Below, piece by piece: positions 6,675 through 62,840 of a DNA stretch of 64,000 nt. The DNA comes from Xylanimonas allomyrinae (GTDB lineage Bacteria; Actinomycetota; Actinomycetes; Actinomycetales; Cellulomonadaceae): contig NZ_CP035495.1 in assembly GCF_004135345.1 (NCBI RefSeq), positions 1,550,001 through 1,614,000 of the forward strand, in the 5' to 3' direction. Position numbers and translations under genes: made by a program. Position 1 is the first letter of the stretch; every line of letters starts with the position of its first letter. The notes beneath the pieces were generated by a model. The model was not told the origin of the DNA, made no database searches, and saw nothing but the letters and a program-made list of their open reading frames with translations.

Positions 6675-6680
6675 TACAGT
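6675..6680 (+). promoter_or_regulatory. -10 box TACAGT, leaderless DUF3097 gene
   Basis: TACAGT lies 7 nt before the GTG at 6688 and there is no ribosome site, the typical actinobacterial leaderless arrangement in which transcription begins at the start codon. Confidence 0.6.
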
Positions 6681-6687
6681 CGCGGTC

Positions 6688-7529
6688 GTGCACGACCGTT
6701 ACGGCCCCGACGCCCTGATCTCGACGCCCCGCACCCGGCCCACGTCGCAACCTCTCGCCGCCGAGCACGGACTCGTCGTCGAGGAGGTGCAGACCGGCTG
6801 GGTCGGGGCCGTCGTTCGTGTCGAGAAGTCCGGCGGGATGCACCTGGTGGTGCTCGAGGACCGCGCGGGACGCACCCGGTCGTTCCCGCTCGGGCCCGGC
6901 TTCTGGGTGGACGGCAAGCCTGTCGTGCTCACCGCGCCCGTCACGTCTCGTGCGCCCGCGCCACCCACCCGGACGGCGTCGGGATCCGTGGCCGTGCACG
7001 GGCAGCGCGCCCGGGTCGCGCGCGGTTCACGCATCTGGGTCGAGGGCAAGCACGATGCCGAGCTCGTCGAGAAGGTCTGGGGCGACGACCTGCGCGTCGA
7101 GGGCGTCGTCGTCGAGCTGCTCGACGGCGTCGACAACCTGGCCGCGGCGCTGGCCGACTTCCGCCCGGCCCCGGCCGGCGCGTCGGCGTGCTGGTCGACC
7201 ACCTGGTGCCAGGGTCGAAGGAGCGGCGGCTCGCCGACGCGGCGCTGCGGACCGTCCCTGCAGGAACCGTGCTCGTGCTCGGGCACCCCTACGTCGACGT
7301 CTGGCAGGCCGTGCGCGCCTCACGGCTCGGGCTGGCGGCCTGGCCGGTCATCGAGCGCGGGACCGAGTGGAAGCGCGGCATCCTGCGTTCTCTGGGCTGG
7401 CCGGCACAGACCCAGGAGGACGTCGCGCACGCCTGGCAGCGCATCCTGCGCTCCGTGCGCGACTACCGGGACCTGGACCCGGCGCTCCTGGGGCGGGTCG
7501 AGGAGCTCATCGACTTCGTGACCGCGTGA
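6688..7529 (+). pseudogene. DUF3097 family protein (single-base frameshift)
   Basis: The first ~163 codons (GTG 6688 onward, to LAAALADFRP) and the last ~113 codons (VLVDHLVPGSKERRLADAAL to the stop at 7529) encode the two halves of the actinobacterial DUF3097 protein, but they are in different frames. Adding one G to the GG at 7167-7168 (CGCCCGGCCCCGG) joins them and gives RPGPGRRVGVLVDHLVPGSK, which is what the family normally shows. The middle part has the GSRIWVEGKHDAELVEKVWG motif of this family. The role is unknown; the family has a Toprim-like look, which is my inference. The loss is probably a sequencing deletion, since seven other sites in the window show the same kind of defect. Confidence 0.8.
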
Positions 7530-12239: not shown

Positions 12240-12995
12240 ATGACGCCTGCAGCGCTGCTCGCGCACCTCAGCCGCCTCCAGGACGCGTTCACCACCCTCA
12301 CCGCCGCGACCGACCCCGCCACGGCGGTGCCCGGACTCGGTGGCTGGCGCGTGCGCGACCTCGTACTGCACCTGGCGGGGGTGCATCACTGGGCCGCCGG
12401 CATGGCCGTCGGCGACCCCACCCGTGACATCACCCTCGTCGCCGACCCCGGGCTGCGCCCCGGCGAGCTCGCCGCGCTCTACGCGAGCCACGCCGCCGCG
12501 CTGCGCGCGACGCTCACCGACGCCGGGCCCGACGGCCCCGCTCGCACGCTGGTGGGACGCGGGACGACGTCGTTCTGGTTCCGGCGCCAGACCCACGAGA
12601 CGCTCGTCCACCTCGGCGACCTCGCCGCGGCCCGAGCGGGTGCCTGGACTCCCGACGTGCTCGACAGCCTCGTCGCGCTCGACACCGACCTGTGGGCCGA
12701 CGGCGTGGACGAGGTCGTCACGATGTTCCAGCCCCGGCAGACGCACCTGGGGCGCACCTCGCCGCTGGAGCGGACCGTCGCGCTGTACGACATCGACTCC
12801 GGACGCACCTGGGTGCTCGGCGCGCACGAGGACGGGCGCACGCCGTCCGACCGGCCCGCCGTCACCGTGACGGGCGACGCCCGCGCGCTCGACCTGCTGC
12901 TGTGGGGCCGGGTGCCGCTCGCGGCCGGCAGCGTCGTCGTCGACGGCGACGCGGGAGCGCTGAGCGCGGCGCTCGCCGCGGGCGTCACCCCCTGA
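12240..12995 (+). CDS. Maleylpyruvate isomerase family mycothiol-dependent enzyme
   Basis: This 251-residue protein has the DinB-like four-helix N-terminal fold of the mycothiol-dependent maleylpyruvate isomerase family, followed by a C-terminal beta domain. Potential metal-binding histidines are in HLAGVHHW (around residues 42-48) and in [13 protein letters not shown] (around 117-125), in the places expected for the family. Proteins of this kind use mycothiol or are uncharacterised relatives; the real substrate here is unknown. The family is typical of mycothiol-producing actinobacteria and supports that assignment. It converges with the transglutaminase operon, 17 nt between stops. Confidence 0.87.
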
Positions 12996-13012
12996 CCCGG
13001 GCCCCACGGCCC

Positions 13013-13852
13013 TCACCCGAGCCGGGTGACCTGCACCTCGACCTGCAGGACGCTGGGCCCGGGCCCGGCGTACACACCCTTGAGCGGCGGCACGTCGCCG
13101 TACTCGCGCCCGCGCGCGACCACGACGTGGTCGGTGCTCACGAACCGCCGGTTGGTGGGGTCATAGCCCGTCCACGAGCCCGTCCAGAACTCCAGCCACG
13201 CATGCGAGTCGCCGCGGACCGTCTCCCCGATCCCAGCGTCGCTCAGCGGGTGCAGGTACCCCGACACGTACCGGGCCGGGATCCCCACGCTGCGCAGGGC
13301 GCCGATCGCCAGGTGCGCCATGTCCTGGCACACGCCCTTGCGCGCGGCCCACGCCTCGGCGGCCGGGGAGTGCACGGCCGTCACGCCCGGCACGTACTCG
13401 AGCCGGTCGCGCACGGCCAGGCACACCGCCTCGGCCGCGGCCGCCGGGGCCAGGCCGCCCGCCGCCTCGAGCGCGAGCTCGGCGACGTCGTCGGGCACGT
13501 CCGTGGTGGCGGTCGGCGACAGGAACGCCGCGTGGGCGTCGAGGACGGCCTCCTCGCCCAGGTCCGCCCACGAGCGGTCGGGCGTCGGCGCCGGAGCGGG
13601 CCCCCGCTCGACGACGGACGACGCCACGATGGTCAGCCGCTCGTGGGCGCTGAGCATCTCGAACGCCGTGACCGCCGTGCCCCAGTAGTCGACGTACTCG
13701 TCGGTCCAGGTGTGCGGGTGGACGTCGACGCGGGTGCTGCGCACGTGCTGGCGCTCGTCGGCGACCGGGCGCATGCGCGCCTCGTTGTACGAGGCGCGCA
13801 CCGCACCGCCGTAGTCGAACCGGGTCGTGTGGACCACACGCAGGACGCTCAC
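13013..13852 (-). CDS. Transglutaminase-like cysteine protease family protein
   Basis: About 279 residues with the bacterial transglutaminase-like fold: an N-terminal beta domain ([26 protein letters not shown]) and the papain-like triad Cys175 ([10 protein letters not shown]), His217 ([10 protein letters not shown]) and Asp231 (YDPTNRRF). Such proteins are predicted to cleave or form amide bonds. The GTG at 13852 overlaps the alpha-E stop as GTGA, making it the third gene of a tightly coupled operon with the alpha-E and ATP-grasp genes. That trio is a recurring bacterial cluster predicted to be involved in amide-bond chemistry or peptide tagging. Confidence 0.93.
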
Positions 13853-37501: not shown

Positions 37502-39972
37502 TCAGTCCTGGACCGGCACGGGCTCCACGTGCCAGATGCGGTCGAGGTAGTCGCGCATGGACCGGTCCGAGGAGAAGAAGCCGCTGCGGGCCACGTTGAG
37601 CACCGCCGCGCGGCTCCAGGCGTCCGCGTCGCCGTAGGCGGTGTCGACGCGCTCCTGGGCGTCCATGTAGGACTGGTAGTCCGCGAGCACCATGAAGCGG
37701 TCCTCGTACAGCAGGTTCGAGACGATCGGCTCGAAGACGCTGCGGTCCCCGCCCGAGAACTCGCCGGCGGCGATGAGGTCGAGGGCCCGGCGCAGCACCG
37801 GGTTCTGCTCGTAGTACGCGGCCGGGCGGTAGCCGGCCTCCTGGATCGCACTCGCCTCCGGCTCGGTCAGGCCGAACAGGAAGAAGTTGTCGTCCCCGAC
37901 GAGCTGGCGGATCTCGACGTTCGCGCCGTCGTCCGTGCCGACCGTGAGGGCACCGTTGAGCGCGAACTTCATGTTGCCGGTGCCTGACGCCTCCTTGCCC
38001 GCAAGCGAGATCTGCTCCGACAGGTCGGCGGCGGGGATGAGCGTCTCGGCCACCGTCACGTTGTAGTTGGCCGGGAACGCCACCCGCAACGCCTGCGACA
38101 CGACCGGGTCCCCGTTGACGCGGGCCCCGACGTGGTTGATGAGCGCGATGATCTCCTTGGCCATCTTGTAGCCGGGTGCGGCCTTGGCCCCGAAGACGAC
38201 GGTGCGGTGCACCGCCGTGGCCGGGTCGAGCTCGCCCGTGCGCAACCGGTCGTACGTCGTCACGACGTGCAGCACCTTCAGGAGCTGGCGCTTGTACTCG
38301 TGCAGGCGCTTGACCATGACGTCGAGCATGGTGTCCGGGTCGATCGCGATGCCGTCACGCGCGGCGAGCAGGTCGACCAGGCGGTGCTTGTTGGCCTGCT
38401 TGACCTCACGGAACCGGGCCCGGAACTGCGCGTCGTCGGCCAGCGGCTCGAGCTCGCGCAGGCGCTCCAGGTCGGTGACCCAGCCGTCGCCGATGGCCTC
38501 GGTGATGAGGCTCGACAGGCCCGGGTTGGCCAGGCGCACGAACCGGCGCGGGGTCACGCCGTTGGTCACGTTCGTGAACTTCTCGGGCCAGAGCTCGGCG
38601 AAGTCGGTCAGCACCTTCTCGCGCAGGAGCTGGCTGTGCAGCTCGGCGACGCCGTTGATCTTCGACGTGCCCACGCTCGCGAGGAACGCCATGCGCACGG
38701 CCCGCTCGGGGTGCTCGGCGATGATCGACATGCGCCGGACGAGCATCTCGTCGTTGCCGAACCGCTCGCGCACCGAGGCGAGGAACTCGTCGTTGATGCG
38801 GTAGATGATCTCCATGTGCCGCGGCAGCAGCCGCGCCATGAGCTCGACCGGCCACACCTCGAGCGCCTCGGGCAGCAGCGTGTGGCAGGTGTAGGCGAAG
38901 CACTGGCGGGTGATCCCCCATGCCTCGTCCCAGGTCAGCCCCTTGAGGTCGATCAGGATGCGCATGAGCTCGGGGATCGCGATCACCGGGTGGGTGTCGT
39001 TGAGCTGGAAGGTGATGCGCTCGGGCAGGCGGTGCAGGTCGAACCCGTCCTCGAGGAATCGCTCGACGAAGTCGTGCAGCGACGCCGCGACGAAGAAGTA
39101 CTGCTGCTGCAGGCGCAGCTCCTTGCCCTGCGGCGTCGAGTCCTCGGGGTAGAGGACCTTGGTGATGTTCTCGGCGAACGTCTGCGCGCGCACGGCCTCG
39201 GCGTAGTCGCCGTAGTTGAAGATCTTCAGGTCGAACGCGTGGGTGGCGCGCGCGCTCCACAGGCGCAGCGTGTTGACGCGGCCGTTGAGGTAGCCGGGCA
39301 CCATGTAGTTGTAGGGGATGGCGAGCACGGACCAGCCGGGAACCCAGGTGGTGCGCTCGACGCCGTCGACCGTCGCCGTCTCGGTGTGGCCACCGAAAGC
39401 GATCTCGACCTCCTGCTCGGGCGGGCGATCTCCCACGGCGAGCCGTTGTCGAGCCACGAGTCCGGCTCCTCGACCTGGCGGCCGTCGACGAACGTCTGAC
39501 GGAAGATGCCGTACTCGTAGCGGATGCCGTAGCCGATGGCGGGGATGTTCATGGTCGCGAGCGAGTCGATGAAGCAGGCGGCGAGACGGCCGAGGCCGCC
39601 GTTGCCGAGGCCCGGCTCGACCTCCGCGGCGCGCAGCTCGTCGAGCGAGAGGCCCAGGCTGGCCAGCGCCTCCGCCGCCACGGCCTCCAGGCCCGAGGCG
39701 ATGAGCGCGTTGTCGAGCTGGCGGCCGAGCAGGTACTCGGCGGAGAGGTAGGCGACGCCGCGACCGGGCTGGTGGTACTGGTGGGTCACCGTGCGGTTCC
39801 AGCGCGACATGAGGTAGGCGCGGGCGGTGCGGGCGAGAGCCAGGTACTTGTCGTTGAGCGAGGCACGCTCGAGCGTCGTTCCCTGCGTGTACGTCAGCTC
39901 CCGCAGGTACTGCCGCACGAAGCCCTCGACGGTGTGCTCCGGGCTGGCGATGGGGGGTGTCGTGTCGGTCAC
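37502..39972 (-). pseudogene. glgP: Glycogen/starch phosphorylase (single-base frameshift)
   Basis: GTG 39972 starts a glycogen phosphorylase: HTVEGFVRQYLRELTYTQG, YLSAEYLLGRQLDNAL, EVEPGLGNGGLGRLAACF. At 39418 the frame breaks (coding CCCGCCCG[G]AGCAGG). One added base joins it to the remainder, which contains LNDTHPVIAIPELMR, NVTNGVTPRRF, VKRLHEYKRQLLKVLHV, GKEASGTGNMKFALNGALTVGTDDGANVEI and the PLP-lysine region. The restored length is 823 residues, normal for the family. It releases glucose-1-phosphate from alpha-1,4-glucan. The leaderless -10 TACTGT is 6 nt upstream. Almost certainly functional in the organism. Confidence 0.88.
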
Positions 39973-39978
39973 GCCACG

Positions 39979-39984
39979 ACAGTA
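39979..39984 (-). promoter_or_regulatory. -10 box TACTGT, leaderless glgP
   Basis: On the minus strand TACTGT ends 6 nt before the GTG at 39972. Confidence 0.6.
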
Positions 39985-40059
39985 CAAGCGAGCGGGCGGG
40001 AAGGCAGCGGGGAAGTCGCATTCCGCGTCGATGACCTGCGCAGGCCCGCGCCCGGGCGC

Positions 40060-43000
40060 TCAGCGCGCCGCCGGCTGCGGCCCCTCCGGGACGCCGACGA
40101 CGGCGCGCGCCCGCGAGCGACCGCCGGAATCCTTGGTGACCACGTAGGAGGCGTCCACGTGCGGTTCGAGCGCCGAGACCTTGTCGTTGGGCGCGCCGAC
40201 CACGAGCTGGAACCCGAGCCCGCGCCAGGCGCCCACGGCGCGACCCGAGAACTGGGCGTCGGCCTTGATGAGCGCCTCGTCGAGAAACACGGGGGCGTAG
40301 CGCGGGCGGTCGGCGCCGGCGTCGCCGAGCTGGTAGCGCAGCGCGGCCCCGACGATGAACGCGACCAGCTCCTGCGACTCACCGCCCGACTTCTCGCCGA
40401 TGTGGTCGTAGAGCGCGACGTGGGCGCCGTCGAGGTCGACCTTCTCGGCCGACAGGCGCACGTGGCGGCGCACGTCGACCAGGTCGGCCCGGTCGGGCGC
40501 GCCGGGCCGCAGCCGGTCGATGAGGCGGGCCATGCGCGCATACCGGGCCTCGCGCTCGGCCTCGGTGGCCTGCGCGGACACCAGCTCGCGCACCTCGCGC
40601 AGCTCCTTGCGGAACCGGGTGACGAGCGCCGACTGGACGGGGCGTGCGTCGATGCGCAGACGGTGGTCGTCGTCGGCGAACGGCAGCCCGGACAGGATCC
40701 GGTTGACCGGGTCGATGCGCTCGGTGATCTCGCGCAGCGAGCGCGCGACGGTGCGTTCGAGGTCCGTGAGGTCGTCGCCCGACATGCGCAGCAGGCTGCG
40801 CCGCCAGTCGGCCTCGAGCTCGTGCAGCCGGTCGGTCTCGAGCGTCGTCAGCACGCGCTCGTAGTCGGCGTACGAGGCGTCGGGGTCGGTGCCCAGGTTC
40901 GGGTCCTCCCACTGCCGGGTGAACGCCTCGAACAGCGTGCGCAGCGCCTCGCGTCCGGTCTCGACGGCGGTCGCCGCCGTCTCGCGGTCGTGCCGCAGCC
41001 GTTCGGCGGCGCGCGCCACGACGGCGTCGAACGCGGCGAGCGCGGCCTGCGGGTCGTCGCCGCCGTCGCCCGGGGCGGTCGCGTCGGCGAGCACCTCGTC
41101 GAGGTAGGAGCGCTGCCGCGCGGTGAGGGTGTCGCCGCGGTCGGCCGCGTCGTCGAGCACGCGCTGGGCGGCGTCGACGTCGTCGCTGACCCGTTCCCAG
41201 CGTGCCTGGAGCTCGGCCGACCTGCCCTTGGCGAGGCCCAGGTCCTGGGTGAGCGCGTCGACGCGCGCGTCCAGCTCGGCGGCGCGCGCCCGCAGGTCGT
41301 CGAGCTCGGGGCTCTCGGCGCGCGCCTGGGCGATGACGTCACGCCAGCGCGCGCAGGCGGCCTGCGCGGCAGCGACGTCGACGCCGTCCCAGCTCAGTTC
41401 CGTGACCACGCGCGCGGCCGCGGCCTGGTCCTCGACGGCGTCCAGGCGCAGCGCGGCACCGCGCAGCGCCTCGGCGGCGGCGCGCAGCTCGGCGCCGGCC
41501 GACTCGATCGCCCGGTCGAGGTCGGCCAGGCGGCGGGTGTTGGTGAAGCCCAGCACGTTGGCGTGCCCCTGGCCGCCGTGCGCGCCGCGCGAGCCCTCGG
41601 AGGTCTGCCCGGTGCGCGTCAGCGCCTTGGGGTGCCGGGCCAGGTCGGCGGGCGAGTCGACGCACGTGAACGCGAAGCGCTCGGCGAGGCGCTCGCGCAA
41701 CCAGCCCTCGAACGGGCCGCGCGCGTGCTCGACCCGCCCGGGCAGGGTCGCCGGGTCGGGGCGGGACTGGCTGACGACCCCGGTCGGCACGCCCTCGAAG
41801 CGCAGGCGCACGGCCGACGGGACGGCGTCGATCGCCGCCCGGAACCGGTCGAGGTGCGCGACGTCGAGCAGCAGCGTCGTCGCGAACCCGCCCAGGGCCA
41901 GGTTGAACGCCTCACGCCACGGCTCGTGCTCGGTGCGCACCTCCAGCAGCTCGGCGACGAACGGCAGCTCGGCGACGTCGAGCCCGGCCGCGTGCGCGAG
42001 TGCGACACGCGCCCGGTGCAGCACCTCGGGAACGTTGCCGTGCCGGGCCGCGAACGCCGTGCGCTCGGTCGTGAGCTCGGCCAGGGCACGCTCGGCGGCG
42101 ATCTGGGCGTCGCGCGCCCGGTCGCGCGACTCGAATGCCGCGTGCCGGTCCTGGGAGTCGGCGAGCCGCGCCGTGGCGGCCGCGGCGAGCCGCACGAAGT
42201 CGGCCTTGCTCGTGACGGTCGCGCCCAGCACGTCGAGCGCGGCGTCGAGGCGCCCGCGGTGTCGCTGCACCTCGGCGAGCGCCGCCTCGGCACGCGACAG
42301 CTCGCCCTCCGCCTGGTGCAGCCGTTCGCCGCCCGAGGCCCACAGCTGGGTGCGGATCGCGTCGAGCTCGGCCTTGCACGCCTTGACGACGGCGTCGAGC
42401 TCGCGCACGCGGTCCCCGGCCTGCTGCGCCTGCCGGCGCACGTCGTCCTCGAGCGCGCGCAGCAGGCCCGCACGCCGTTCGGCACGCCACAGGCCGACCG
42501 GCGACCCGTCGTCGTCGGTGCGCCCGACGCCGTCGACGACGGCGAGCCGCTCGCGGGCCGCGTCGATGCTCGCGCGGTGGCCGCGGACCGGGGACAGGAC
42601 GCGCACCTGCTGCTGCGCGGTGAGCATCCGCGCGCGCGTGCCGGAGAGCTCGTCGAAGTGCTCGACGACGTCGTCGGCCCGGGCCAGCGTCTCGGGCTCC
42701 TCGAGGACCATCGACTTGTAGAGCGCGTCGACTGTGGTGATCTGCTGGCCCGCCTGGATGCGCGCGAGCAGGCCGACGGCCTTCTCGCCGCCGCCCGCGG
42801 CGCCGATGCCGAGCGTCGAGTACAGGCGCGCCGCGAACTCGCGGTCGGTGTCGAAGCAGGTCAGGCCGAGGGCCACGAGGGCCGGGCGGGCGAAGCGCTG
42901 CTCGGCCGCGGGCGCCAGGTCACGCAGGTCGAGCGGCCCGGCGACCGTGGCGCGCACGGGGGTCAGCGCGTCCATGGTGGTGGCCCCGGCGGGGACGTAC

Positions 43001-43434
43001 CAGGCGCGCACGGCCGTCAGCTCGGCGCCCGACTGGTCGGCCCACGTCATGGCGATGGCCGTCCAGGTGTCGCGTCCGTCGCCGCGCAGCACCCGTTCGC
43101 GCGTGCCGTCGGCGGTGCGCGACTCGTCGAGCTTGCCGCGCGCGTACGAGATGACGTTGCGCTGGTCCTTGCCGCGCGGGCGCCCGACGACGCCCCCGTT
43201 GGACGCGCCGTTGAACGGCGTCGTGTGGGGCATGAGCAGCGCGATGTAGGCGTCCATGAGGGTGGACTTGCCCGAGCCGGAGCCGCCCGCGAGCAGCGTG
43301 GCGGTGGAGGCCAGCCGCACGCGGTGGGAACCGTCGTAGCCGCCCCAGTTGACCACCTGAAGGTCCCGGGCGACCCACTGCTGGCCCGTCGAGGCCGCCG
43401 GGATGAGCCCGAAGAGGGTGTCGACCATCGTCAT
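40060..43434 (-). CDS. jetC: JetC/MksB-type SMC-like ATPase (Wadjet/Mks condensin)
   Basis: A 1124-residue SMC-like protein: an N-terminal Walker [10 protein letters not shown] (residues 50-58) after the family opening [23 protein letters not shown]; long charged, Ala/Arg/Glu-rich coiled-coil stretches; and a C-terminal ABC half with signature [23 protein letters not shown], Walker [15 protein letters not shown] and the closing [19 protein letters not shown]. In Wadjet (JetABCD) and Mks systems this subunit forms the DNA-loop-extruding motor. ATG 43434 overlaps the jetB stop. No jetD lies downstream: glgP follows in 87 nt. Confidence 0.92.
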
Positions 43435-44255
43435 TCGTCGTCCTCCTCGTCGGAGTCGGTCTCGTCGGAGTCGGTGTCGTCGGAGTCGGTCTCGTCGGAG
43501 TCGGTCTCGGCCGCGTCGTCCAGGACAGCGGCGAAGCCGGCGTCGGAGCCGACGGCGTGGGCCGCGGCCTCGGGAGCCGGGCGTCCCCCGGCGCGCAGCC
43601 ACGCGGCGAGCTCGGCCAGCCGGTCGACGGGCAGCACCACCTCGACCAGGGCGGTGACGCGGAACCGCCCCGGCGCCTCCTCGACGAGGAACCCCTCGGT
43701 CACGAGCTTGGCGATGGCCGCGCGCACCTCGCGCTGGCGCAGCGCGACGTTCGTCTCGGCCGGGTCGAGGTAGGTGAACACCCACTGCTCGAGCTCCTCG
43801 GCGTCGACGCGTGCGGCGACCTCGCCCGCCCGGCTCTCCTGCTGGTGCAGCGTGCGCAGCTGCACCAGCAGCACCGTCTCGACGCGCGTGTACGACTCGT
43901 CGCGCAGCAGGATCGGGATGTCGACCTCGCCCGAGCGCACCTGCCGCTTGTAGGCGATGCCGCGGTCGCGGTCCACGACGAGCGTCACGAACAGGTCGTG
44001 CAGCCGCGACTCGATGACCGTCTGGTGCGCCAGGAGCGCCTGCCAGCGCTCCGGCGTGCGCTCGGCCGACAGGTAGCGGCGGCGCAGCAGGTCCACGAGC
44101 ACCACGCGGGCGGCCGGATCGAGCGTGCCGGTGTCACCGGCGAACAGCTCGGCGGGGTCGGCCTCCATCGCGACGGGCGCGATGAACCCGCCGGGCTCCA
44201 CGCCCGGGTCCCCGACGGGCGCGCCCTCGACGGGCACGTCCTCGACGTCGCTCAT
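43431..44255 (-). CDS. jetB: JetB/MksE-like kleisin-associated protein (DUF4194)
   Basis: A 274-residue DUF4194 protein, the MukE/MksE-like (kite) partner of the condensin. The core reads [58 protein letters not shown], then winged-helix elements ([36 protein letters not shown]). The C-terminal ~40 residues are unusual: a strongly acidic tail with four TDSDE-type repeats. ATG 44255 overlaps the jetA stop (ATGA) and its stop overlaps the jetC start (ATGA). Confidence 0.92.
43443..43510. repeat. 15-bp repeats encoding the acidic JetB tail
   Basis: About four copies of a 15-bp unit (reading TDSDE on the minus strand) lie at the 3' end of jetB and give an Asp/Glu/Ser-rich tail. The near-identity makes length change by slippage likely. 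Confidence 0.75.
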
Positions 44256-45742
44256 ACGTCCCCCTCCGGGCCGGCGGTGCTGGTGCGGTCGGGGCGTGGC
44301 GCGAGCGCGACCCCCTCGAAGGCGAGACGACGGCGCGTGCCGTCGGGTCGCACGGTGTCGACGACGGCGACGGCGTCGCGGTCGACGAGCCCGTGCCGGG
44401 CGCCGAGCTCGAGCAGCCCGACGAGGTCGACCGGGCGGCGCGTCGCCGCGTCCGCACCGGCGAACAGGTCGGCCAGGTCGGCGGGCCCGCCGTCGGCGGC
44501 CCGCGCGAGCAGCGCGGCGAGCTCGTCGTAGTGCGGCCCGCCCCACGCCTGCGCGTGCTCGAGCGACGGCTCGGTCCCGTCGTCGTCCCACGGGGCGAGC
44601 GGCGCGGGCCCGTCCGCGGGGCGCAGGTCGGCGAGCGTCGCGCGCAGGCGTCCCACGCTCGCGCGCGGCAGGCGGCGCAGCGGGTCGACGGGCTGGGCGC
44701 GCCGCGTCGTCGGCATCCACGCACCGAGCCCGGAGATGACCTCGCGCAGCAGGTCGTCGACCTGGCGGTCGCGCAGCGGGTCGTGGTGGCGCACCTGTGC
44801 CGCGATGACGCGTGACGCCTGACGCTGCGCGGTCAGCACGTCCTCGAACCCCTGCTCGATGCGCTGGGTGATCGCGCGCAGCTCGGCACGCTGCTGCTCG
44901 GGCAGGCGCGCCGCGAACGGGTGGCGTAGCACGACGTCGAGGGCGTCGGCCAGCTCGTCGAGACGCTGCGGATCCCCCAGCAGCCGCGTGGCGCCGGCGA
45001 ACGCCCGGCCCTCGGCCGTGGCGTCCATGAGGTGCTCGGCGCGGTCGAGGTAGTCGCGCAGCACCTCGCCGGTCGGCCGCTCGTCCTGGCGCAGCGCGGT
45101 GACCGTCTCGCGCTGGATCGAGCGGATCGACTCGGCGACGCGTGCGAAGTCGGCCGGCAGCTCGCGCACCAGCATGAGCACGTTCTCGGCCGCCTCGAGC
45201 AGGTGCTCCTCGCCGACCGGGTCGACGGTGCCGTCGCGTTCGAGCCGTGCGCGCTCGGTCTCGCGCTGCGCGATCTCCCGGGTGAGCCGGGCGATGCGCG
45301 CGGCCGCGTCCGGGTTCGCGTCGTCGGCCAGCCGTTCGACGGCCTCCAGCAGCGTGAGCACGCGTGAACGCGTCACGCGCGAACGTCCACCGCCTGCGCG
45401 GCCCGTGATCTCCAGGGCGCCGACGGCGTGCGCCGACAGCCGGTACCTCTCGGTCCCGTCCTCGTCGGCCTGGCGCACGAGCCAGCCCGCCTCGACCCAG
45501 GTGCGGCACAGCTCGCGCGCCGGGCGCTCCGGCAGGTCGTCGTACCCGGCCGCGCGCAGCTGAAGGACGGCGTCGGCGATCTCGGTGTGCGCGTCGGCGA
45601 CGCGCACGATCGTCCGGTCGGGCTGGAACACGCTCGACAGCAGCGCGACGACCAGCGGTGCGTCACGCTTGTGCAGCAACGCGAGCATGGGGCTGCGGAA
45701 GCCCCGCAGCGCGCCCGCGTAGGCGCTCTCGATCCTGTTCAT
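44252..45742 (-). CDS. jetA: JetA/MksF-like kleisin subunit (DUF3375)
   Basis: A 496-residue DUF3375 protein, the kleisin-like subunit of Wadjet/Mks complexes. Family pattern: [76 protein letters not shown], then a long helical middle ([43 protein letters not shown]). ATG 45742 is 17 nt behind the leuS stop, so jetABC is transcribed with leuS. The gene order A-B-C matches defence loci, but the JetD nuclease gene is missing. Confidence 0.92.
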
Positions 45743-45759: not shown

Positions 45760-48723
45760 TCAGACGACGACGTTGACCAGCTTGGGCGCGCGCACCACGA
45801 CCTTGCGCACGGGCTTGCCACCGATCGCCTTGACCACGTTCGGCTCGGCCAGCGCCGCGGCCTCCAGGTCGGCCTCGCCGATCGACGGCGGCACCTCGAT
45901 GCGACCGCGCACCTTGCCCTGCACCTGGATCACGCACGTCACGGTGTCCTCGACCAGGTACTGCGGGTCGGCGACGGGGTACGGCTCGTACGTGATCGAC
46001 TCGGCGTGGCCCAGGCGCTCCCACAGCTCCTCCGCCAGGTGCGGGGCGAGCGGCGCGACCATCTGCACCAGCGGCTCGACGGCGGCGCGCGGCACCGCGT
46101 CGAGCCCGGTCAGGTGGTTGTTGAGCGTGATGAGCTTGGCGATCGCCGTGTTGGGGCGCATGCCCTCCATCTCCGCCGTGACGTCGGCGATGGTGCGGTG
46201 CACGGCCCGCAGCGTCTCGACCGAGGGCTCGGCGTCGACGACGGTGACCTCGCCCGTCTCCTCGGACACCACGTTGCGCCACAGCCGCTGCAGGAACCGC
46301 TGCGAGCCGACGACGTCGCGCGTGTTCCAGGGGCGCGACAGGTCCAGCGGGCCCATCGACATCTCATAGACGCGGAAGGTGTCGGCGCCGTACGCCTCGT
46401 ACATCTCGTCGGGCGTGACGACGTTCTTCAGGGACTTGCCCATCTTCCCGTACTCGCGGGTCACCGGCTGGCCCTGCCACGTGTACCCGGTCTGCTCGTC
46501 GCCCTCGACCTCGGCCGCCGGGACCGGGAACCCCTGGGCGTCGCGGTAGGCGTACGCCTGGATGTAGCCCTGGTTGAACAGCGTGCCGAACGGCTCGATC
46601 GCGCTCACGAAGCCCAGGTCGTACAGCACCTTGTGCCAGAACCGCGCGTACAGCAGGTGCAGCACCGCGTGCTCGACGCCGCCCACGTACAGGTCGACGC
46701 CGCCGGCCGGGCCCGACGTCGGGTTGTGGCGCGGCCCCAGCCAGTACTCGTCGAGCGCGCGGTCGACGGCCGCACCGGACTCGGTCGGGTCCAGGTAGCG
46801 CAGGTAGTACCAGCACGACCCGGCCCAGTTGGGCATGGTGTTGGTGTCGCGGCGGTACCGGCGGGGCCCGTCGCCCAGGTCGAGGGTCACCTCGACCCAC
46901 TCGGCGTTGCGGCCCAGCGGGGCCTCGGGCACCGAGTCCCTGTCCTCCGGGTCGAAGGTGCGTGGCGCGTAGTCGGGCACGTCCGGCAGGTCGACGGGCA
47001 GCAGCGACTCGGGCAGCGCGACGGGGCGGTCCTGCTCGTCCCACACGATCGGGAACGGCTCGCCCCAGTAGCGCTGCCGGCTGAACAGCCAGTCGCGCAG
47101 CCGGTACGTCGTCGTGCCCTCGCCGACGCCGTGCTCCTCGAGCCACGTGATCGCGCGGGCCTTGGCCTCGGCGACGCCCAGCCCGTTGAGCACCAGGTCC
47201 GCGGCGGGGATGTCCCCGGCGTCGGGCGCGGGGCTGTTGATCGCGACGCCGTCGCCCGTCCACGCCCCGTCCAGGTCGGCGGGCAGCCCGCCGTCGGGCG
47301 CCACGGTGTAGACGATCGGCAGGTCGAACGTCGTGGCGAACGCGTAGTCGCGCTCGTCGCCGCCCGGGACGGCCATGATCGCGCCCGTGCCGTAGCCCAT
47401 GAGGACGTAGTCGGCGGTGAAGACCGGCACGTACGCGCCCGTGAGCGGGTTGACGGCCAGGTGGCCCGAGAAGACGCCGGTCTTCTTGCCGGCGTCGGCC
47501 TGCCGCTCGACGGCCGACTTCGTCGCGGCCTCGCGGCGGTAGGCGGCCACGGCCGCGACGGGCGACTCGTGCCCGCCGGTCCACGAGGAGCGCGTCCCGT
47601 CGGGCCAGGCCGCGGGCACCTCGTCGAGCAGCGGGTGCTCGGGGGCCACCACCATGAACGTCGCACCGAACAGCGTGTCGGGGCGGGTGGTGAACACCTC
47701 GATCGACTCGCCCGCGCCCGCGGCGTCGAGGTCGACGGTGCCGACGACGTCGAACCGCACGTTCGCGCCCGTGGAGCGGCCGATCCAGTTGCGCTGCATC
47801 GACTTGACCTTCTCGGGCCAGTCGATCAGCGCGAGGTCGTCGTTCAGGCGGTCGGCGTAGGCCGTGATCCGCATCTTCCACTGGCGCAGCGCCTTGGTGA
47901 ACACCGGGAAGTTGCCGCGCTCCGAGCGGCCGTCCGCGGTGACCTCCTCGTTGGCCAGCACCGTGCCCAGTCCGGGCGCCCAGTTCACGGGCGACTCGTC
48001 GACGTAGGCCAGGCGCTGGGCGTCGACGACGTCGCGCTGCTGCGCCGTGGTCAGGTCGGCCCAGGCCGTGCCCGCGGGGTAGCCGGGGACGGGCCGCGTG
48101 CCCGCGGCCAGCTCCTCGCGCAGTTCCGCGATGCGACGGGCGCGGCCCGTGCCGCCGTCGGGGCGCGCGGCGTCGGCGTCGTACCAGGAGTCGAAGATCT
48201 GCAGGAAGATCCACTGCGTCCAGCGCACGTACCCCGGGTCGATCGTGGCGAACGAGCGGCGCGGGTCGTGGGCCAGACCGAGGCGGCGCAGCTGGCGCCG
48301 CATGGTGGCGATGTTCGCCTCGGTGGTCACGCGCGGGTGCTGGCCCGTCTGCACGGCGTACTGCTCGGCGGGCAGGCCGAACGCGTCGTAGCCCAGGGCG
48401 TGCAGCACGTTGTCGCCGCGCATGCGCCGGAAGCGCCCGACGACGTCGGTGGCGATGTACCCCAGCGGGTGGCCGACGTGCAGGCCGGCGCCCGACGGGT
48501 AGGGGAACATGTCCATGATGTAGTACGGGCTGCCCGACGCGGGAGCCCCGCCCGGGCCCGTGAGGTCGCCCCGCGGGTTCGCGGCGTGGAACGTGCCGCG
48601 CTCCTCCCAGCGGTCCTGCCAGCGCTGCTCGATCTCCTGCGCGAGCACCGGCGTGTAGCGGAAGGAAGTCTCGCGGGAGGACTCGGAAACCGGGGTGGCC
48701 TGGGCGGCGTCGGGCGTGCTCAC
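45760..48723 (-). CDS. leuS: Leucyl-tRNA synthetase
   Basis: A 987-residue class I synthetase. The HIGH-type motif is in [18 protein letters not shown] near residue 70; the editing domain follows ([24 protein letters not shown] with the LeuRS-type threonine-rich region, [18 protein letters not shown]); the KMSKS-type loop is GKMGKSLKN. The C-terminal domain ends [14 protein letters not shown]. Length matches actinobacterial LeuRS. GTG 48723 has TAGGAT 8 nt upstream (leaderless). jetABC follows on the same strand 17 nt later. Confidence 0.97.
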
Positions 48724-56053: not shown

Positions 56054-58672
56054 ATGGGACTCGTGCCCACCGCGCAGACCGTGACCGTGGACGGGCGCCG
56101 CGTCCGGCTCACCCACCTGGACAAGGTGCTCTACCCGGCCACGGGCACCACCAAGGGCGAGGTGCTCGACTACCTCGCCCGGATCGCCCCCGCGCTCCTG
56201 CCGCACGTGCGGCGCCGTCCCGCGACCCGCAAGCGCTGGCCCGACGGCGTCCAGGGCCAGGTGTTCTTCCAGAAGAACGCGGACGGCTCGACGCCGCCGT
56301 GGGTGCGCACGCACCGGCTGCGCCACCAGAGCTCGGCGAACGACTACGTGCTGGTCGACGACCTCGCGACGCTCACCTGGCTGGGCCAGACGGCCACGCT
56401 GGAGCTGCACGTCCCGCAGTGGCAGGTGGGCCGCACCGGCGCACCGCTGCCCCCGGACCGGCTGGTGCTCGACCTCGACCCGGGGCCGGGCGCGGGCCTG
56501 GCGGAGTGCGCCGAGGTCGCCCGCCTGGCCCTGCCGCTCCTGCGCGGCATGGGCCTGGAACCCCTGCCGGTCACGAGCGGCTCGAAGGGCCTGCACCTGT
56601 ACGCGGCGCTCGACCTCGACCCCCACGCGGGCGCCACCCGGCCCGACGCCGCACGGCCGCCGTCGACCGAGCAGGTCTCGGCCGTCGCCCACGAGCTGGC
56701 CCGCTACCTCGAGGCCGACCACCCCGACCTCGTCGTCAGCGACATGCGCAAGTCCGTGCGCGCCGGCAAGGTGCTGGTCGACTGGTCGCAGAACAACGGC
56801 AGCAAGACCACCATCGCGCCCTACTCCCTGCGCGGCCTCGACCACCCCACGGTCGCCGCCCCCCGCACCTGGGCCGAGCTCGACGACCCCGGGCTGCGCC
56901 ACCTCACGTTCGACGAGGTGCTCGCGCGCGTCGCACGCGACGGCGACCTGCTCGCCCCGCTCACCGCCGGGCACCTGGCCCAGCTCGAACCCACCCCGGC
57001 GCACCTGGCACGCTTCGAGCGCCTGGAGACCTACCACGCCAAGCGTGACCCCGACCGCACCCCGAGCCGTTCGAGCACGAGCCGTTCGAGCACGAGCCAC
57101 CGCGGGCGCCGTCGTCCGCGGCGGAACCTCCGGGGGCAGGTGCGGCGGCGTCCGGCCCCTCCCCCTCGCGCCTCCAGGCGACCCCGCCCGTCCCCGGGGT
57201 GCCGCGCGGGCGCCGTCCTTCGTCATCCAGGAGCACCACGCCCGGCGCCTGCACTGGGACTTCCGCCTGGAGCACGACGGCGTGCTGGTGAGCTGGGCGC
57301 TGCCCAAGGGCGAGCCCACGGACCCCGCCCGCAACCACCTCGCCGTCCAGACCGAGGACCACCCGCTCGCCTACGGCACCTTCGAGGGGCGCATCCCCGC
57401 AGGCGAGTACGGGGCGGGCGAGGTGACGCTCTGGGACACCGGCACCTACGAGCCGGAGAAGTGGCGCGACGGCCGCGAGGTCATCGTGACGCTCCACGGC
57501 GACCGCCGCGGCACGCGCCGCCTCGCCCTGATCCGCACGGGCACCGGCACCCACTGGCTCATCCACCGCACCCAGCAGCAGCCTGCTCCCCCACCGGGGT
57601 CACCTCGGCACTTCGTCGTCGGCTCGTGCCCCCGGGCGCACGAGCCGACGACGAAGTGCCGACCAGCCAAGCCGCCGGCACCATGTCGTCGCGGCTGGAG
57701 CCCATGCTGGCGACCGGCGCCGGGCCCGTTGAGGTGCGGGGGCTGGAGGCGGACGCGCTCCTGCCCGAGCCGCGGTGGGCCTTCGAGATGAAGTGGGACG
57801 GCTACCGCACCCTGGCCGTCGTCGAGAGCGGGCCCGAGGGCAGGGCCGTGGCCCGCTTCCGGTCGCGCGGCGGGGTGGACCTCACGCCCACCTACCCTGA
57901 GCTGCAGGCCCTTGCCGGCCAGGTCCTGGGTGACCTGCCCGTGGTGCTCGACGGGGAGATCGTCGCCCTGGACGCGTCCGGCCGGCCCGACTTCCGGCGT
58001 CTGCAGCACCACGACTCGGCCGTCGAGCTCATCGTGTTCGACCTGCTGCAGGTCGGTGGCCGATCCTTGCTGCGCGCCCCCTACGACGAGCGCCGCGCAC
58101 TGCTGGCGGACGTCCTCGACGCACGCCGCCCGATCCACCGGCCGCCCGCGTTCGACGGCGACCTCGGCGCCGCGCTCGCGACCTCGCAGCGGCTGCGGCT
58201 CGAAGGCGTCGTGGCCAAGCGCCGCGACTCGACCTACGAGCCGGGCCGCCGCTCGCGGCAGTGGCTCAAGCTCAAGCACACGCGCACGCAGGCCGTCCTG
58301 GTGGTCGGGTGGCGGCCGCTGCACGCGGGCGGGCCGCACGCGGACACCCTGCACGCCGGTGGCCTGCTCCTCGCGGTGCCGGGCCCGGACGGCGCGCTGC
58401 GCTACGTCGGCCGGGTCGGCACGGGCTTCACCGACGCGGACCGGCGCGCCGCAGCCGAGCGGCTGACGGCCGTGGAGCGCCCTTCTCCACCCGTGGACGG
58501 CGTGCCGCGCGCCGACGCCGCGGACGCCCGGTGGGTGACACCGCTGGTCGCAGAGGTCGAGTTCGCCGGCTGGACGGCCGACCCGGCGGCCGAGCCCGAG
58601 GCGCGGCTGCGGTCGGCGCGCTGGCGCGGCTGGCGCGACGACACCGCGCCGGGCGACGTCGTCCTCGAATGA
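56054..58672 (+). pseudogene. ligD: ATP-dependent DNA ligase LigD (disrupted: polymerase, phosphoesterase and ligase parts in different frames)
   Basis: LigD of NHEJ combines a polymerase, a 3'-phosphoesterase and an ATP-dependent ligase. All three parts are here: polymerase (VTVDGRRVRLTHLDKVLYPATG; LDLDPG; DMRKSVRAGKVLVDWSQNN), phosphoesterase (FVIQEHHARRLHWDFRLEHDGVL; EYGAGEVTLWDTG) and ligase (active-site Lys in EMKWDGYR; LEGVVAKRRDSTYEPG). The polymerase and ligase frames agree but the linker and phosphoesterase do not. One added base at 57064 (ACCCCG[G]AGCC) gives a linker EPFEHEPFEHEPPRAPSS; one at 57208-57210 joins the phosphoesterase; a 58-bp hairpin at 57605 sits where the frame returns. 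Start chosen at ATG 56054 (MGLVPTAQ); GTG 56063 is possible. A separate ligase start at ATG 57683 is also conceivable. Confidence 0.8.
57605..57662. repeat. Perfect 25-bp inverted repeat inside ligD
   Basis: Bases 57605-57629 and 57638-57662 are exact reverse complements around an 8-nt spacer (CCCCGGGC), between the phosphoesterase and ligase domains. A short ACC occurs on each side. It looks like an inserted mobile palindrome or a hairpin terminator between two ORFs. Confidence 0.8.
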
Positions 58673-61562: not shown

Positions 61563-62840
61563 CCAGTCCAGGCGGTTCGTGCGAGACGATCCCGTTGACG
61601 CGCGGCGTCACGCGCCGCTCGAGCAGGAGCGCCGTGCCCGCGAGCGCCCCGCAGCCCGCGACGACGACGGCGATGAACCCGCCGGCGAGGTGGTGCTCGA
61701 GCAGGAAGCCCGCCACGACGGGCCCGGCGATGGTGCCCGCCTGGAAGGCGCCCGAGTTGACGGCGTTGTACCGCCCGCGCAGATGGTCGGGGGCCATGTC
61801 GTTGGTGATCGCGGGCAGCGCGGACTGCATCAGCGTCTCCCCCAGCCCGAACACGCCGTGGAACACCAGCACGCCCGCAGCGGCCGCGGCGCCGCCCGGC
61901 ACCAGCCCCGTCGCCCCGAGGATCAGCCACGACAGCGCCCAGATGGCCGCCATCGCCACCAGCACCCGCGTGCGCCGTCGTCCGCGAGCGCGGTTCATGA
62001 CCCAGAACTGCAGCAGGACGATGACGGCGGTGTTGACGACGAACGCGAAGCCGACCACGCGCGTGGACACCTGCGCGGCCTGCCGTGCGAACGCCGGGAA
62101 CCCGCCCTCCATCTGCCCGTAGCCCACGAACGAGGCGAGCACGGCGAGCGCGGTCAGCCACAGCACCTCGGGGCGGCGCAGGATCGCGAGGTACCCGACG
62201 GTTCCCTCGGCCGCGTCGGCGGGGCGTTCGGCGCGGCCGTGCAGGTGCCGCAGCGGCCCGAGCAGCACCGCGACCGGGGCGAGGAACGTCGCAGCGTTGA
62301 TGAGGAACGCGGCCACGAAGGTGCCGGGCCGCTCGACGTCGACCAGGAAGCCGCCGACGACGCCGCCCACGCCGATGCCGAGGTTGAGCAGGGCGAAGTT
62401 GACGCCGAAGTAGCGCTGCCGCAGCTCGCCGCGCACCACGGTGGCCACGAGCGCGTTGGACGCCGGCCATGCGACGCCCAGCTGGACGCCGAACAGGCAC
62501 AGCCCGGCGGCGGCCACGACGGGCACGGTCGCGCACGCGAGCAGCACCAGCCCCCGATGCCCGCGGCGAGCCCCGCGAGCACGACGCGGCGCGCGCCGTA
62601 GCGGTCCACGAGCGCTCCGGCGGGCCCGGTCACGGCCAGTCCGACGACGGCAATCAGCCCCATGAGCGTGCCCGAGAGGCCGAGGGTGAACCCGCGCACC
62701 TCGTGCAGGTAGATGATCGTGAACGGCAGCGTGAGACCGCGCCCGAAGAACTGGACGACGACCGTCGTCAGCAGCCACCGCCCGTCGCGGGGCAGGGCGA
62801 ACCAGAACGCGACTGCGCCGGAGCGCGCGGAGGTGGGCAC
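61555..62840 (-). pseudogene. MFS transporter (single-base frameshift)
   Basis: From GTG 62840 the N-terminal part (FWFALPRDGRWLLTTVVVQFFGRGLTLPFTIIYLHEV, VTGPAGALVDRYGARRVVLAGLAAGI) is MFS-like. At the C5 run 62551-62555 the frame breaks; one added base (coding ATCGGGGG[G]CTGG) joins it to LVLLACATVPVVAAAGLCLFGVQLGVAWPASNALVATVV and ten or so further helices. It resembles siderophore/multidrug exporters, and the adjacent SIP gene and iron box make an iron connection plausible, although the box faces the SIP gene. The gene ends in TAA inside that iron box. Confidence 0.82.

Follow-up and report, generated by a model that had tools for sequence, protein, structure and literature searches.

A leuS-linked jetABC operon without jetD in Xylanimonas allomyrinae, probably encoding a Wadjet/MksBEF-group condensin without a nuclease

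Loop extrusion by paired motors has been described for both Wadjet and MukBEF complexes. Type I Wadjet systems (JetABCD) are also named MksBEFG or EptABCD, and the PADLOC definition of Wadjet requires all four genes (PMC9252829). Complexes of this group devoid of JetD are already known, namely MukBEF of E. coli, reported to fold the chromosome (PMC7617805), and MksBEF of P. aeruginosa, a three-subunit chromosomal condensin without nuclease that is thought to have lost JetD (PMC10586767). The MksBEFG operon of C. glutamicum, which is also actinobacterial, has been reported to target plasmids rather than the chromosome (PMC10123090, PMC7083940), and this nuclease-bearing complex is described as having no part in chromosome organisation in its host (PMC7083940).

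The window analysed in this work, a stretch of 64,000 nucleotides of the X. allomyrinae genome, contains a kleisin, a KITE subunit and a MukB-like SMC ATPase encoded in one operon without MksG/JetD, the composition of an MksBEF-type complex (Table 1). Intact jetA, jetB and jetC genes with ATGA overlaps, located 17 nt behind leuS and with no room for jetD before glgP, had been claimed from the sequence, and all these features were found. The overlaps lie at 44255-44252 (jetA/jetB) and 43434-43431 (jetB/jetC), the 17-nt gap separates the leuS end (45760) from jetA, and glgP starts about 90 nt past the jetC stop, which leaves no space for a gene of about 1.2 kb such as jetD. Pfam and PADLOC families were matched by JetA (PF11855, 404 bits; JetA1, 647 bits), JetB (PF13835, 127 bits; JetB1, 313 bits) and JetC (AAA_29, 73 bits, and SbcC_Walker_B, 76 bits; JetC1, 1584 bits). 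JetC aligned with the solved JetC 8dk2 over residues 19-1101 (E 1.6e-45) and carries the Walker A, signature and Walker B motifs; JetA was similar to solved JetA chains (best E 2.4e-16), and JetB had no match among solved structures. The glgP frame shifts near position 39420, as indicated by PF00343 matches in two frames and by comparison with relatives. A promoter and terminator scan at the operon found none, and almost none would be expected from such a scan; expression of jetABC by read-through from leuS would be a guess from the 17-nt gap.

Table 1. Position of the jetABC genes and their neighbours, numbered from the first nucleotide of the window.
Feature	Coordinates	Strand	Product length	Remarks
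jetA / mksF-like kleisin	44252..45742	-	496 aa	DUF3375
jetB / mksE-like KITE subunit	43431..44255	-	274 aa	DUF4194, variable acidic repeat tail
jetC / mksB-like SMC ATPase	40060..43434	-	1124 aa	
leuS	45760..48723	-		upstream of jetA, same direction; Pfam; synteny partner in 10 genera
glgP (glycogen phosphorylase)	37502..39987	-		downstream of jetC, same strand; PF00343

The operon shares with type I Wadjet the JetA, JetB and JetC families, the gene order, the overlaps and the ATPase motifs, and its JetC falls in the same clade as jetABCD operons of the same genus, but JetD, present in type I Wadjet, had no match in the operon or the genome. It differs in the same way from the C. glutamicum operon, which has the MksG nuclease and adjoins adhA. 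The resemblance to MukBEF proper is slight, since JetC matches the MukB N-terminal model only weakly (25.7 bits, cut-off 23) and the MukE and MukF families had no match in the window at E<=0.01.

The original prediction had left room for a defence motor whose nuclease is encoded elsewhere and had proposed a search of the full genome, which is 99.99% complete. This search was carried out in six frames on both contigs, a choice that matters because the assembly has several frame breaks, and PF09983, PF11795 and a 19-row JetD alignment (the last at E<=1) all gave no match. Both Pfam families match in C. glutamicum, the control genome, which was positive for the JetB and JetD families, and the 19-row alignment finds JetD in three relatives. 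With no JetD match on either contig, a defence motor served by a distant JetD is not supported. A JetD too diverged for detection was also rejected, because in 99 loci JetD scored at least 350 bits or not at all, with the exception of one remnant of 88.7 bits.

The JetB family was found in 156 of 200 genomes of the bacterial family (23 of 25 genera) and JetD in 31 of them (12 of 25 genera), so that the JetABC motor is distributed more like a core gene. The suggested comparison of leuS-jetABC synteny in related genera revealed that leuS lies directly upstream of jetABC in 34 of 99 loci, spanning 10 genera, and LeuS and JetC distances were correlated over 31 loci (r 0.70; none of 2000 permutations as high). 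Loci were termed leuS-type when their JetC was at least 44% identical to that of the window, which leaves L102 (43.7%), of the same clade, counted as distant. JetD was absent in 57 of the 68 leuS-type loci with enough flank, three short-flank loci being set aside; the 100 regions were a non-random sample for which JetD-bearing genomes were fetched deliberately, so the JetD-less share is understated. Two loci were left out for want of JetC (L142, L150), the tree also omits the fragments L143, L082, L083 and L165, and some named loci overlap with genomes of the family survey. At class level, 49 of 296 genomes exceeded the DUF4194 cut-off, 25 of these 49 being without JetD among the matches listed. 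Relatives of JetC occurred in 15 plasmid records, all below 60% identity, and in one phage record; these are all distant, and mobility of jetABC was rejected.

The gene jetD lies directly after jetC in scattered members of the family, two of them in the genus of the window (G002 and G007, with full jetABCD). According to the original prediction, relatives with complete jetABCD would speak against it if the present copy were a recent deletion. The complete operons in the same genus do indicate that jetD was probably lost here, but the decay of one copy does not account for it, because the two nearest relatives also lack jetD and their genes are under constraint. Over 95 JetC rows the JetD state changes 13-14 times, and under the Dollo assumption of no regain 18-22 losses are counted among the descendants of the last ancestor shared by all JetD-bearing rows and 20-24 in the whole clade. 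The main tree was built by a quick method and gave long-branch warnings. The simplest history would be an old leuS-linked jetABCD from which jetD was lost about 18-24 times if never regained. Regain is possible, because the JetD tree agrees only partly with the JetC tree (distances over 11 rows, r 0.56; 91 of 5000 permutations as high). P. aeruginosa MksBEF is a separate case; here JetD is missing many times over within one actinobacterial family, often in leuS-linked loci.

Close pairs on the two sides of this change were also found. JetC is 87-92% identical between the jetABC and jetABCD sides in the six pairs compared, and Xylanimicrobium pachnodae, with jetABCD, and its relative G001, with jetABC, lend themselves to direct comparison. 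Erosion of jetD was seen in G176 (87 codons, 52% identity) and a 47.5-bit remnant in L191; same-strand tblastn matches behind jetC (E<=0.1) occurred in 3 of 72 JetD-less loci, only that of L149 being convincing. No shared substitute gene was seen behind jetC in the JetD-less relatives. In six loci (g21) the gap that precedes glgP measures 956-1010 nt, and one frame from each, compared with Pfam, gave one immunoglobulin-like domain, one of the same kind below the cut-off and four without match; none of these six frames matched a nuclease family.

The Walker A, signature and Walker B motifs matched in all 56 JetD-less rows, the window included, and in all 11 JetD-bearing rows of the leuS type. 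The 28 distant rows fitted the patterns less well (Walker A in 11 of 16 JetD-bearing and 5 of 12 JetD-less rows), which probably reflects differing motifs. Simple Nei-Gojobori estimates of dN/dS, obtained on GC-rich DNA, ranged from 0.06 to 0.61 over all JetD-less pairs computed. Between the window and its nearest relative, G010, the values were 0.24 for jetA, 0.34 for jetB, 0.19 for jetC and 0.19 for leuS; the jet genes and leuS gave 0.25-0.29 and 0.26 against G006, 0.33-0.39 and 0.24 against G001, and 0.49-0.61 and 0.32 against G003. Four further JetD-less pairs gave 0.06-0.14 for jetC, 0.09-0.15 for jetA and 0.20-0.45 for jetB, with leuS at 0.09-0.17 in three of them, and jetC of L114/L115 gave 0.13. 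The intact ATPase motifs together with these ratios point to a motor under constraint. In some pairs the jet genes outpace leuS in dN/dS (up to 0.61 versus 0.32), which is a point against a condensin function. No JetC column divides JetD-bearing from JetD-less rows well (best 0.31 bits). The JetB N-terminal motif F[IV]xPVxMExD differs little between JetD-bearing rows and sister rows without JetD; it is looser in deep JetD-less branches, where the comparison is confounded by descent. A JetD-contacting IFDR motif has been reported in JetB (PMC10586767); its loss was considered as a candidate change, but the motif could not be mapped onto the JetB rows.

On sequence evidence, the operon probably (at roughly 0.6) encodes a Wadjet/MksBEF-group condensin that lacks a nuclease and folds the chromosome or helps to segregate it. 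JetC dimers with the kleisin JetA and the KITE subunit JetB would act as paired motors, loading on DNA and using ATP for loop extrusion; without JetD, the finished extrusion would not end in a DNA cut, and the complex would then fold the chromosome or help to segregate it, like MksBEF of P. aeruginosa. The apparent repeated shedding of jetD, with the motor kept, suggests another job for the motor, probably a chromosomal one. This agrees with the chromosome-structuring condensin of the original prediction, which is favoured by the old leuS synteny, the intact ATPase motifs and the purifying selection, the function being deduced from them. The report that C. glutamicum MksBEFG takes no part in chromosome organisation (PMC7083940) counts against it, although that complex includes the nuclease. 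Another reading, a leftover defence operon with a decaying motor, finds some echo in the eroding jetD of G176, the L191 remnant and the pairs in which jet genes exceed leuS in dN/dS; it is very improbable, since JetC frames are of normal length, except contig-edge pieces and G059, all 56 JetD-less leuS-type rows keep their ATPase motifs, and three pairs taken from branches devoid of any JetD have jetC dN/dS values of 0.06-0.10.

JetABC might also still defend against plasmids or phages. It could load on small circles and compact or silence them uncut, a mode proposed for eukaryotic Smc5/6 (PMC10586767), and sister operons with jetD do keep nearly the same motor (JetC 87% identical, L077 vs L078) and a similar JetB N-terminus. 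Such a mode is nevertheless unlikely, because an old synteny and presence in most genomes of the family are unusual for defence genes, mksB, mksF and mksG are all reported as necessary in C. glutamicum (PMC10123090), and a plasmid-like second contig coexists with jetABC. This contig, of 32,160 bp, encodes ParA, ParB and ArdC domains and matches plasmids in part, and a size of 32 kb is within the range reportedly restricted by Wadjet (PMC10586767). Its coexistence counts weakly for the condensin reading and against plasmid restriction by JetABC, its plasmid status being putative, and it may carry counter-defence. It is quite improbable that JetABC recruits a nuclease of a different kind from a distant locus: G004 does carry its jetD on a separate contig, next to ldh, lexA and nrdR, and this gene is of the same type as the one in G002 (47% identity), so action at a distance is conceivable, but the genome of the window has no JetD match, and a search local to the locus found neither a shared substitute behind jetC nor a nuclease family in the frames of the longer gaps.

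The condensin reading may tentatively be extended to the whole family, Cellulomonas and Xylanimicrobium included, in which JetABC would be a core chromosome organiser anciently linked to leuS and the nuclease an optional add-on that lineages would have shed, and perhaps regained, time and again. If this is true, one removable gene would switch the same machine between chromosome folding and plasmid cutting. The value of the case lies in the close pairs with and without jetD, which make this switch from defence to chromosome testable, and in a step from jetABCD to jetABC that seems repeated many times within one family; the class-level counts also caution against scoring JetABC by itself as plasmid defence.

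In this genome smc is split over two frames. Across a 36-kb part of the window, breaks were counted in 4 of 29 conserved frames, some of which may be shadow frames. Given the other breaks in the assembly, an assembly error is likelier, and a broken smc was rejected as the reason for keeping jetABC. The strongly acidic JetB tail, noticed earlier as an oddity, is present and originates from a tandem repeat with a 15-bp unit (4.3 copies, 95% matches); as a variable repeat it was rejected as a functional element, the number of acidic residues in the last 30 ranging from 4 to 19 among relatives.

The operon lies where the original prediction had placed it, on the minus strand, 17 nt downstream of leuS and with ATGA overlaps joining jetA to jetB and jetB to jetC. 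Each of the three genes occupies a single frame in the window, and about 90 nt separate the end of jetC from the start of glgP. A structure-database comparison has revealed that solved Wadjet chains resemble JetA and JetC; JetB matched no solved structure. JetA and JetB were unmatched in NCBIfam, and JetC gave SMC matches only, all below the cut-off. A 15-bp tandem repeat (4.3 copies, window 43446-43509) codes for the acidic tail of JetB, which varies strongly among relatives.

Features of the leuS-jetABC region (window positions)
Gene	Position	Strand	Annotation or remark
jetA	44252-45742	minus	DUF3375/JetA of type I Wadjet (Pfam, PADLOC)
jetB	43431-44255	minus	DUF4194/JetB of type I Wadjet (Pfam, PADLOC)
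jetC	40060-43434	minus	JetC of type I Wadjet (Pfam, PADLOC)
leuS	45760-48723		17 nt ahead of jetA

The operon had been predicted to lack the nuclease JetD, and a genome-wide search for a Toprim/JetD protein agrees with this: in the 3,848,642 bases of the two contigs (99.99% complete), no match was obtained with the Pfam families JetD_C and DUF3322 or with a profile of 19 JetD proteins (E<=1). Corynebacterium glutamicum, with its known MksG, was used as positive control for both Pfam searches and scored.

The JetB family was present in 156 of 200 family genomes and the JetD family in 31, and therefore at least 125 genomes carry JetB without JetD. Within the genus, 10 of the 11 genomes carry JetC, the sole exception being 65% complete, and an alignment search located JetD in three (G002, G007 and G004); a fourth match, in G001 (E 0.013), was taken as noise. 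The jetD gene is directly behind jetC in G002 and G007. In G004 (79% complete) it lies alone beside ldh, lexA and nrdR (L262:1733-2944), on a contig other than that of jetABC, a possible case of mis-binning; the jetABC genes of this genome are followed by an RCC1-repeat gene. At class level, the DUF4194 cut-off was passed by 49 of 296 genomes, for which the listed rows give 24 with a JetD match and 25 without. A scan of named JetC relatives, with the best 80 of 215 retained, included Cellulomonas, Microbacterium, Leucobacter, Nocardioides and Nocardia; among these 80, 71 loci extend 1.5 kb or more past jetC, with JetD in 13 of them, none in 57 and a remnant in 1. A second, very distant JetC clade of four genera (26-29% identity to the window; L090, L093, L104, L105, L114, L115, L126) lacks jetD in 7/7 rows and may be a nuclease-free lineage of independent origin. 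One phage record, derived from human fecal samples (MT835499.1:25760-29035), also encodes a protein resembling JetC, with 32% identity across half of the query.

The synteny with leuS extends beyond the window. When 100 regions were taken from relatives, JetC was present, window included, at 99 loci, with leuS directly upstream at 34 of them (10 genera) and glgP downstream at 20, again counting the window. JetD-bearing genomes were sampled on purpose, and locus and tree counts hence describe a pattern and not frequencies: jetD was present at two leuS-linked loci (L077, L144) and absent from 30, the other two ending too soon behind jetC. LeuS and JetC distances were correlated (r 0.70, 31 loci, 0/2000 permutations as high), as expected if the operon was inherited with the chromosome. 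The leuS link looks ancestral to the clade, because leuS-linked rows surround the unlinked ones in the JetC tree. Among the best 80 of 215 named JetC relatives, leuS was found at four loci (L175, L176, L177, L205) and at none from Nocardia or Microbacterium.

A profile built on 24 JetD proteins showed JetD at the 99 loci to be all-or-none (at least 350 bits or absent), except for an eroding piece of 88.7 bits in G176. Truncated jetD remnants shortly behind full-length jetC at L149 (oriented 12869-13187) and L191:12472-12739 apparently represent nuclease loss caught in progress. Across the 95 rows of the JetC tree, JetD state switches 13-14 times, compared with an expectation of 23.6 for shuffled labels; close JetD-less sisters adjoin JetD-bearing rows, and 22 leuS-linked rows from seven genera, in three neighbouring branches, lack JetD. 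Barring any regain of JetD, the tree requires 18-24 losses. In the JetD tree, two genus members pair (support 98/97) and eight Cellulomonas-type rows cluster (87/95), both matching the JetC tree; the whole 11-row set is weakly joined (49/7), and JetD and JetC distances agree partially (r 0.56).

JetC frame length is normal in JetD-less loci, excepting contig-edge fragments and G059, and the Walker A, signature and Walker B patterns matched in 56/56 JetD-less and 11/11 JetD-bearing rows with JetC at least 44% identical to that of the window. In the comparison of the window with G010, its nearest relative and likewise JetD-less, dN/dS was 0.24 for jetA, 0.34 for jetB, 0.19 for jetC and 0.19 for leuS; values grow with distance (0.61, 0.49, 0.49 and 0.32, respectively, against G003). 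On branches without JetD in any sampled row they were 0.06-0.10 for jetC, 0.11-0.15 for jetA, 0.20-0.30 for jetB and 0.09-0.17 for leuS. Judged from these substitution ratios, jetABC is clearly constrained, most strongly on the ATPase and most weakly on JetB.

Wadjet has been proposed to extrude DNA, with JetD firing once extrusion has consumed a small circle (PMC10586767), and a motor without JetD could not cut in this way. JetD is thought to have been lost from Pseudomonas aeruginosa MksBEF, which contributes to chromosome organisation (PMC10586767), and the nuclease is absent from MukBEF too (PMC7617805). Both are, like the window's operon, motors without JetD, and the operon is best read as a probable condensin of their kind. 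Counting against a condensin, a chromosomal role was reportedly not seen for C. glutamicum MksBEFG (PMC7083940), and no clear mark of the JetD-less state was found in JetB or JetC sequences. JetD-less Wadjet-group complexes are already known: MukBEF, P. aeruginosa MksBEF and, in a survey of more than 250,000 genomes, several further members (PMC7617805). Borrelia MksB, without MksE or MksF, is described as favouring long-range chromosome contacts (PMC10406323). Incomplete sets are termed 'Wadjet other' in PADLOC (PMC9252829), and Wadjet enrichment is reported in Actinobacteria (PMC10482375). A leuS-linked lineage with repeated nuclease loss was not found in the portions of the literature searched.

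The genome also encodes ScpA and an smc gene (contig C1, 444797-448347; L281, L286), which is split over two frames (model parts 2-383 and 389-1181) and forms one frame in the genus members G001, G002, G003, G007 and G010. If this break is real, JetABC could be the sole intact SMC motor of the genome. An assembly error is the likelier cause, since breaks also occur in 4 of the 29 conserved frames that were compared across a 36-kb part of the window, and the assembly may contain many small insertions or deletions. Three frames continuous in G010 are broken in the window (6676-7526, 56063-57575 and 61588-62834), some of the 29 compared perhaps being shadow frames. The glgP gene switches frame near window 39420 (minus strand); its two parts share one frame in 19/19 relatives, so the switch reflects either an assembly error or a frameshift of recent origin.

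The two ends of the second contig (C2, 32,160 bp; L255 and L256) did not overlap at any of the lengths tried. This contig encodes ParA, ParB, ArdC and IrrE-like domains and has stretches similar to actinobacterial plasmids; given the ParA, ParB and ArdC domains and these partial plasmid matches, a small plasmid-like element seems to coexist with the operon.
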